Shown here: piece after piece, positions 48,763 to 49,730 of the stretch
How positions within the stretch are numbered: the stretch's first letter is position 1
Layout of the letters: each line of letters begins with the position of its first letter
Assembly: GCA_007571305.1 (NCBI GenBank)
Contig: RKRR01000140.1
Coordinates: 25,476 to 89,475, forward strand
Reading direction: 5' to 3'
Source: Candidatus Poribacteria bacterium
GTDB lineage: Bacteria > Poribacteria > WGA-4E > WGA-3G
DNA length: 64,000 bases
The notes under the pieces: generated by a model
What the model was told of the DNA's origin: nothing
Seen by the model: the letters and a program-made list of their open reading frames with translations, nothing else
Databases searched by the model: none
Made by a program: the position numbers and the translations under genes

Positions 48763-49043
48763 TGGGTCTCTCCTTCAGGGCGATGTTAAATTTCTCTTTG
48801 TATCATATCACAATCAAGCCTCCCTGTCAATTGGGTAAGAGTTGTAGGAGGGACTCGGATTCCCAACCACTGGCTCTTCCCAATCCTGAAAATTTTTGTT
48901 CAGACTTCAAGACATTTTGACTTGCATTTCCAAGTTTTTCGTTATATTATTTTCTCGAAACTTCCGAGACGAAACCTCGCCCTTTAGGGGGAATGCAGTC
49001 TTGCCTAAGTGAAAAGGGCCAAACACTAATATTCTAAAAATCT

Positions 49044-49073
49044 TTGACATGTCCGAAACAAATGTGGTATAAT
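49044..49073 (+). promoter_or_regulatory. Consensus sigma-70 promoter
   Basis: -35 TTGACA (49044-49049), 18-nt spacer, -10 TATAAT (49068-49073). Confidence 0.8.
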
Positions 49074-49078
49074 TGGAG

Positions 49079-49157
49079 TAGCATTGTTGGTAGGGAGTTT
49101 CACCCGCGTCGCAAAGTGTAGTCTCTACCGAACCACGTGAAACAGTAAACAATGCTA
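49079..49157 (+). ncRNA. Candidate structured 5' RNA: closing stem enclosing an H-type pseudoknot
   Basis: P1 TAGCATTGTT (49079-49088)/AACAATGCTA (49148-49157); P2 GGTAGGGA (49089-49096)/TCTCTACC (49122-49129); P3 GTTTCAC (49097-49103)/GTGAAAC (49137-49143), crossing P2. Confidence 0.55.
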
Positions 49158-49334
49158 AGGATAAATAACGCGAAATACTCCCCATAAACTCTTTTACGAT
49201 AAATCGTTGAAGCGACTCCAGACTGACTTGAATATCATAGGGATTGTGAGGAATCATTTTCAATTACTCGGATATTGTAAAATACACCAACCAGACGTAC
49301 CGGGCATATTTTAACAGACGAGGAGCAGGTTTTT

Positions 49335-49730
49335 ATGAAAAAAACAAGTTTTTTCTTATTGATAACGGTTTTTTTCACCATTCTCCCAAAAGCACCTGCC
49401 CAAGACACCTCACAGGTTCAAGCACTAGAAATAGAAGAAGCACGATTAGACGCGTTGGAGGACGTAGAGAGAAACGTCTCTAGAGATGCCTGGGGAGCGA
49501 TAGGCTTCTTTTGTGGTTGTTTTGGTGTTGCCTACGCATTCGTAGCCACACCGAGCGTTCCCGTAGGTGCACTCTTGGGCAAAAGTCCGACGTATGTCCA
49601 GATATACACACTCGTGTATCAAGAGCACGCGAAACGTAAAAGATGGCAGTCATCTGCGGTCGGATGCGGTATAGGTGCTGCGGCCGGTCTGGCATTAAAT
49701 GCACTCCTGACACTATCTGCGTCGAGATAA
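49335..49730 (+). CDS. Small secreted/membrane protein of unknown function
   Basis: Signal peptide 'FFLLITVFFTILPKAPAQ'; two Gly/Ala-rich hydrophobic segments. Confidence 0.7.
   Translation: MKKTSFFLLITVFFTILPKAPAQDTSQVQALEIEEARLDALEDVERNVSRDAWGAIGFFCGCFGVAYAFVATPSVPVGALLGKSPTYVQIYTLVYQEHAKRKRWQSSAVGCGIGAAAGLALNALLTLSASR

Follow-up and report, generated by a model that had tools for sequence, protein, structure and literature searches.

A pseudoknotted, covarying RNA outside Rfam is the predicted 5' leader of IS200/IS605-type tnpB elements in Poribacteria

Introduction

A 64,000-nucleotide stretch of the genome of a Candidatus Poribacteria bacterium (hereafter, the window) carries a compact pseudoknotted RNA structure immediately behind a near-ideal promoter and a short distance upstream of a gene for a small secreted protein at 49335. 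A preliminary description, made from this DNA alone, suggested a new riboswitch or small RNA. The locus therefore raises two questions: to which gene does this RNA belong, and what might it do there?

Results

Structure of the RNA in the window. The promoter and the three helices of the preliminary description (P1 of 10 bp, P2 of 8 bp, and P3 of 7 bp, the last crossing P2) were recovered where they had been placed, the promoter with a full consensus score, as were the abutting 5' strands of P1, P2, and P3 and the 50 paired nucleotides among 79 (Table 1). Four features had been absent from that description: a hairpin, P4; a CCC/GGG helix, P5; a duplicate of the P1 partner, named c2 here, with c1 denoting the first copy; and a remnant of a tnpB gene. 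In the complete architecture, P1, P2, and P4 are nested, P3 crosses P2, and P5 encloses the 3' strand of P3. When folded without its pseudoknot, the window copy reaches −23.5 kcal/mol, with a z-score of −2.5 relative to shuffled sequences, so the evidence from this single sequence is modest.

Table 1. Features of the leader locus in the window, and of the related leader at a protease gene
Feature	Position	Strand	Sequence or remark
Left-end palindrome, probable	48968..49001	+	CCTCGCCCTTTAGGGGGAATG; position and TTTAG-loop motif as in intact left-end hairpins
Promoter	49044..49073	+	TTGACA-18-TATAAT; -35 at 49044-49049, -10 at 49068-49073; 12/12 consensus
P1 5' strand, predicted RNA 5' end	49079..49088	+	TAGCATTGTT; 7/7 counted pairs covary
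P2 5' strand	49089..49096	+	GGTAGGGA; pairs counted in homologues
P3 (pseudoknot) 5' strand	49097..49103	+	GTTTCAC; 6/7 pairs changed on both sides
P4 hairpin	49104..49121	+	CCGCGTC GCAA AGTGTAG; weakened in window copy; 7/7 pairs covary in homologues
P2 3' strand	49122..49129	+	TCTCTACC; pairs counted in homologues
P5 region, flanking P3 3' strand	49133..49146	+	broken in window copy; intact and covarying elsewhere
P3 (pseudoknot) 3' strand	49137..49143	+	GTGAAAC; pairs counted in homologues
P1 3' strand, copy 1 (c1)	49148..49157	+	AACAATGCTA; pairs counted in homologues
Shine-Dalgarno-like sequence between c1 and c2	49158..49161	+	AGGA; identical placement in intact type A copies
P1 3' strand, copy 2 (c2), decayed	49164..49172	+	aligned to intact element L251
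tnpB 5' remnant	49168..49314	+	ACG replaces ATG start codon; stop TAA at 49312-49314
Protease-gene leader	L182:1441-1680 and L185 (reverse strand)		two species

Covariation and distribution. Sequence searches returned diverged copies of promoter and structure, at 70 to 80% identity, in most genomes of the window's genus. With a covariance model, the RNA was present in all 38 genomes searched of this genus, at up to 59 copies per genome, and in 57 of 85 Poribacteria genomes, representing 4 of 22 genera; the window's own genome holds four strong copies. An alignment of 16 diverged homologues was used to count pairs in P1, P2, P3, P4, and P5. Here, 95.8% of cells pair, compared with 33 to 41% when the partners are slid by 1 to 3 columns, and changes on both sides were seen at 25 of 32 pairs, including six of the seven pseudoknot pairs. 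Pairing in P2 and in the seven P3 pairs reaches 100% among 56 ungapped sequences of the commonest leader type, and P5 is intact in other copies, with covarying pairs. Compensatory changes across these diverged homologues support P1, P2, the pseudoknot P3, P4, and P5 as predicted helices, and we regard this comparative evidence as decisive that the structure is not a product of chance. An artefact of duplicates or short repeats was considered and is excluded by covariation in dozens of diverged copies.

The host element. The gene downstream of most copies encodes TnpB, with matches to the Pfam families OrfB_IS605 (5.8e-23) and Cas12f1-like_TNB (1.1e-22). Pairs of near-identical copies gave clean element boundaries, with left and right hairpins of the IS200/IS605 type; the right ends of intact relatives carry the motif TATCAC or TTGAC, and that of the window copy has been lost. 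The protein matches agree with the OrfB_IS605 and zinc-ribbon/RuvC C-terminal domains expected of the TnpB of such an element, and the window retains a remnant of the gene. Among the elements examined, none showed a TnpA gene. The leader sits about 100 nucleotides inside the left end, 5' of tnpB. In two near-complete genomes, it lies directly upstream of 46/58 and 36/48 TnpB genes, and TnpB is the next gene after 46/59 and 36/40 leaders; 12 of the 58 and 12 of the 48 TnpB genes have no detectable leader. From this context, we infer that tnpB elements of the IS200/IS605 type carry the RNA as their 5' leader, and it is predicted to head the tnpB messages of hundreds of elements in Poribacteria. 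A role as a small RNA, which had also been suggested, is less likely than that of a cis-acting leader.

Clustered at 45% identity, the TnpB proteins that follow leaders form four groups, whose representatives are mutually 28 to 38% identical; more than one TnpB lineage thus carries the leader. It was not found beside the nearest TnpB homologues scanned outside Poribacteria (Rhodothermus, Geoalkalibacter, and Trichormus plasmids and one IMG/VR contig; TnpB approximately 34 to 41% identical). A separate 54-kb IMG/VR "viral" contig carries a leader (L239:1407-1509) together with an 81%-identical TnpB, and carriage of the element by a phage in Poribacteria is possible.

The distance between promoter and structure is fixed, the -10 element ending 4 or 5 nucleotides before P1 in 103 of 121 distinct leaders. 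A rival view is that the structure serves transposition as single-stranded DNA, and not as RNA. IS200/IS605 transposition uses single-stranded DNA hairpins, and left- and right-end hairpins are present here; however, the fold begins at the predicted start site of the promoter, G-U pairs are common and strand specific (U-G at one P1 pair in 45 of 56 leaders), and the element ends possess hairpins of their own. We consider action as DNA highly improbable.

The window copy and its neighbour. Alignment of the window copy to an intact element (L251, encoding a TnpB of 404 amino acids) spans the promoter, the leader, and the first tnpB codons, and 30 of 43 residues of the remnant frame are identical to the N-terminus of that TnpB (E = 2e-18). 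The window frame starts with ACG and reaches its stop codon after about 48 codons; decay has also affected P5 and the second P1 partner, c2 reading AATAACGCG where homologues show AACTATGCG or AACAATGCG. These losses mark the window copy, as judged by its sequence, as a decayed fossil of a tnpB element.

Because the tnpB that follows it is a fossil, the RNA is not part of the secreted-protein gene behind. That gene occupies 49335-49730 and belongs to a large family of paralogues with members in all genomes of the genus; its small product matched no Pfam family above cut-off. The earlier idea that the RNA regulates this gene is not sustained: the tnpB remnant intervenes, and the gene family is generally leaderless. 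Homologues occur genus-wide without a recurrent leader (of 11 homologous neighbourhoods checked, 2 contain a match to the leader, which in one case is cut off). A leader for this gene was accordingly rejected, and the gene is an unrelated neighbour. Elsewhere, a leader with both P1 partners was observed right before a small secreted-protein gene (MKTILLFSILLCV...; L152:4119-4227, minus strand), which begins at the position where tnpB would. At L188 and L172, which come from different genera, a leader remnant precedes homologous MSKIEDFAFYG... genes of unknown function.

Two partners for one P1 strand. The most striking feature of the leader, and a new one, is an apparent choice of partners for P1. 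Its 5' strand is complementary to two tandem sites at the tnpB start, c1 and c2, and covaries with both. Type B leaders read GTATCAAGTT ... ACTTGATA-CTTGATATACCATG, with the copies 7 nucleotides apart, and type A leaders, the window's type, read GCATAGTT ... AACTATGC-GAGGATAA-AACTATGCG, with the copies about 15 nucleotides apart. In type A, a Shine-Dalgarno sequence separates c1 from c2, and the tnpB ATG lies within c2; in type B, c2 ends 4 nucleotides before the start codon, and no clear Shine-Dalgarno sequence was seen. Across 56 ungapped leaders, the 5' strand pairs only at offsets 82 (95.8% of cells) and 89 (97.3%), with all other offsets at 64% or below. At least two complementary sites were found in 109 of 121 leaders, compared with 20% when the 5' strand was borrowed from a leader differing at two or more bases. 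Where the 5' strand varies (AAG, AGG, ACG, GCG, GTG, ACAC, TAGC, CCAG, and others), both copies carry matching changes. Since one strand is unable to pair with c1 and c2 together, this pattern is the signature of alternative pairing.

As in a translationally masked transposase leader of the IS200 tnpA type, the structure could cover the start codon: c2 overlaps or adjoins the ATG, and its partner is the 5' strand of P1. In nested folding, with energies that ignore the pseudoknot, c1 is favoured by a mean of 2.4 kcal/mol, with widely scattered values, and the two pairings come within 2 kcal/mol of each other in only 16 of 56 leaders. This preference for c1 means that a switch may be lopsided.

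Absence of a known family and of a conserved unpaired core. Rfam 15 (4227 families) gave no match to the window at gathering thresholds; a lax scan (E up to 10) returned nothing inside the structure and only sub-threshold snoRNA noise outside it, and the homologues matched no family at E ≤ 1 save for a weak, off-target match to IsrR on the other strand. With no match for the window region or its homologues, identity with a known Rfam RNA was rejected. The proposal of a structured, promoter-linked pseudoknot RNA stands, and the RNA lies outside Rfam. Its designation as a new riboswitch in the metabolite sense is unsupported, since scarcely any unpaired base is conserved: across the leader types, invariant positions are nearly all paired, an observation that speaks against both a pocket for a metabolite and a catalytic core.

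A metabolite riboswitch, the lead of the preliminary description, would fit the 5' leader position, the pseudoknot, and the alternative pairing close to a start codon. However, conserved unpaired nucleotides that could form a ligand-binding pocket were not found in the leader, and the associated gene encodes a mobile-element nuclease, neither a metabolic gene nor a transporter; we find the idea barely credible. A self-cleaving ribozyme, of a new or an HDV-like fold, is very unlikely. The order of P2, P3, and P4 recalls the HDV core, and P2 nearly always begins with GG, but no conserved unpaired catalytic core runs through types A, B, and C (the last described below). The L3/P1.1 and active-site C core of HDV-like ribozymes was not found in the leader, P4 is a plain variable hairpin, unlike the L3 loop of HDV, and an Rfam ribozyme match is absent even at E = 1. 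Both candidates were rejected for want of a conserved unpaired core.

Leaders without tnpB. Several copies exist of elements of approximately 480 bp that lack tnpB (L223, L224, and L225, for example, are 99.6% identical); they consist of a left hairpin, the promoter, the leader, a GGGCAG...CTGCCC domain, and an omega-RNA-like right end. They carry a third sequence type of leader, type C, in which 99.6% of cells pair, P5 included, with compensatory changes in each of the four helices counted (P2, P3, P4, and P5) and both P1 partners present. These multi-copy, non-coding, IS200/IS605-like whole elements (L223, L224, L225, and L232) were observed in two genomes, G018 and G005, and the GGGCAG...CTGCCC structured domain is conserved among them. 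They are possibly guide-RNA-only elements on which TnpB acts in trans.

A leader was also found before a gene for a trypsin-like secreted protease (Trypsin_2, 2.1e-15), at the same place in two species. Between the two loci, the leader is 98.6% identical over 72 nucleotides, the promoter 88%, the upstream flank 64%, and the gene 72%. Such conservation points to purifying selection without tnpB, and thus to host use, which makes this locus a candidate for host takeover of a transposon leader; gene conversion may offer an alternative explanation.

Because both the tnpB-less elements and the protease locus keep the structure, and the former keep c1 and c2, translation is not the whole story, and control of translation may not be the sole role. 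Two possibilities arise: that the leader has functions beyond the control of tnpB translation, or that what it governs is the fate of the transcript in general. One such reading is that the RNA acts whatever lies downstream, as a blunt, knotted 5' cap that shields the tnpB/omega-RNA transcript against decay from the 5' end or determines how it is processed, with the choice between c1 and c2 tuning that process and not translation. In almost every copy, P1 begins at the predicted 5' end, the fold is kept in non-coding elements that have both the leader and an omega-RNA-like right end, and the sequence is free to vary wherever pairing persists, all of which would suit a cap. It leaves unexplained, however, why c2 contains the start codon in type A and keeps a fixed distance of 4 nucleotides from it in type B, and we give it a small but real chance.

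Discussion

The leader may act as a two-state regulator of tnpB translation, a proposal to which we give an even chance on the comparative evidence. The element carries its own promoter, positioned so that transcription would begin with the first bases of P1. With P1 paired to c1, the knot would close and leave c2 and the start codon free, together with the Shine-Dalgarno sequence in type A; with P1 paired to c2, the start region would be masked. Such alternation would keep TnpB synthesis low or conditional on a transcript from which, in other systems, the guide (omega) RNA is also cut, and our first guess at a trigger would be TnpB itself, an RNA-binding protein. The transposase gene tnpA of IS200 has a 5' stem-loop that masks its own ribosome-binding site (PMC12594629), and TnpB is reported to process its own mRNA into omega RNA (PMC10278001); taken together, these observations suggest that control at the tnpB start could decide how many transcripts go to protein and how many to guide RNA.

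In a rival proposal, TnpB or a complex of TnpB and omega RNA would bind the leader and so exert strict negative feedback on production of the nuclease. TnpB, a nuclease, binds RNA and handles the mRNA that encodes it (PMC10278001), and leader and tnpB travel together. Against strict feedback, one leader serves TnpB clusters of only 28 to 38% identity, 12/58 and 12/48 TnpB genes have no detectable leader, and the leader is conserved in front of a host protease gene; we hold this decidedly unlikely.

The two-state leader could also be part of something broader: a three-strand switch, with one 5' strand and two competing partners, that couples TnpB synthesis to guide-RNA production from the same transcript, functions without tnpB in guide-RNA-only elements, and has been adopted by the host as the leader of at least one protease gene. 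We judge this full scheme unlikely. TnpB is the ancestor of Cas12, and a covarying, switch-like leader at the tnpB start, in hundreds of natural variants, makes directly testable how these transposons balance translation of the nuclease against processing of its guide RNA on one transcript. The RNA itself adds a strongly supported family, missing in Rfam, from an uncultivated phylum of sponge symbionts. We found no open-licence paper naming TnpB and Poribacteria together, and a prior report elsewhere is possible.

Several known systems resemble this leader in part. Pseudoknot riboswitches such as preQ1 and SAM-II are small 5' leader pseudoknots that hide a start region; the leader described here has no conserved ligand pocket or metabolic gene, and its helices are free in sequence. 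HEARO, the IscB omega RNA, is likewise a structured RNA upstream of a mobile-element nuclease gene, but the protein here is TnpB (OrfB_IS605 and Cas12f1-like_TNB), the RNA has no guide position at its 5' end, and the leader has no Rfam match. The TnpB omega RNA, or reRNA, is a structured RNA of the same element and the same transcript strand. It is, however, a right-end scaffold that occupies the 3' end and adjoins the guide on its 5' side, whereas the leader lies at the 5' end and internal to the element; the right ends of the intact elements examined contained no R1 match. The 5' leader of IS200 tnpA in Salmonella (5'tnpA RNA; PMC12594629) also forms the structured 5' end of a transcript from an IS200/IS605-superfamily gene, and its stem-loop masks the ribosome-binding site, which may be compared with the start-site pairing here. 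No two-partner P1 is described for that RNA, and no Rfam model joins the two; the IS200 leader is a hairpin that precedes tnpA, whereas the Poribacteria leader is a pseudoknot that precedes tnpB.
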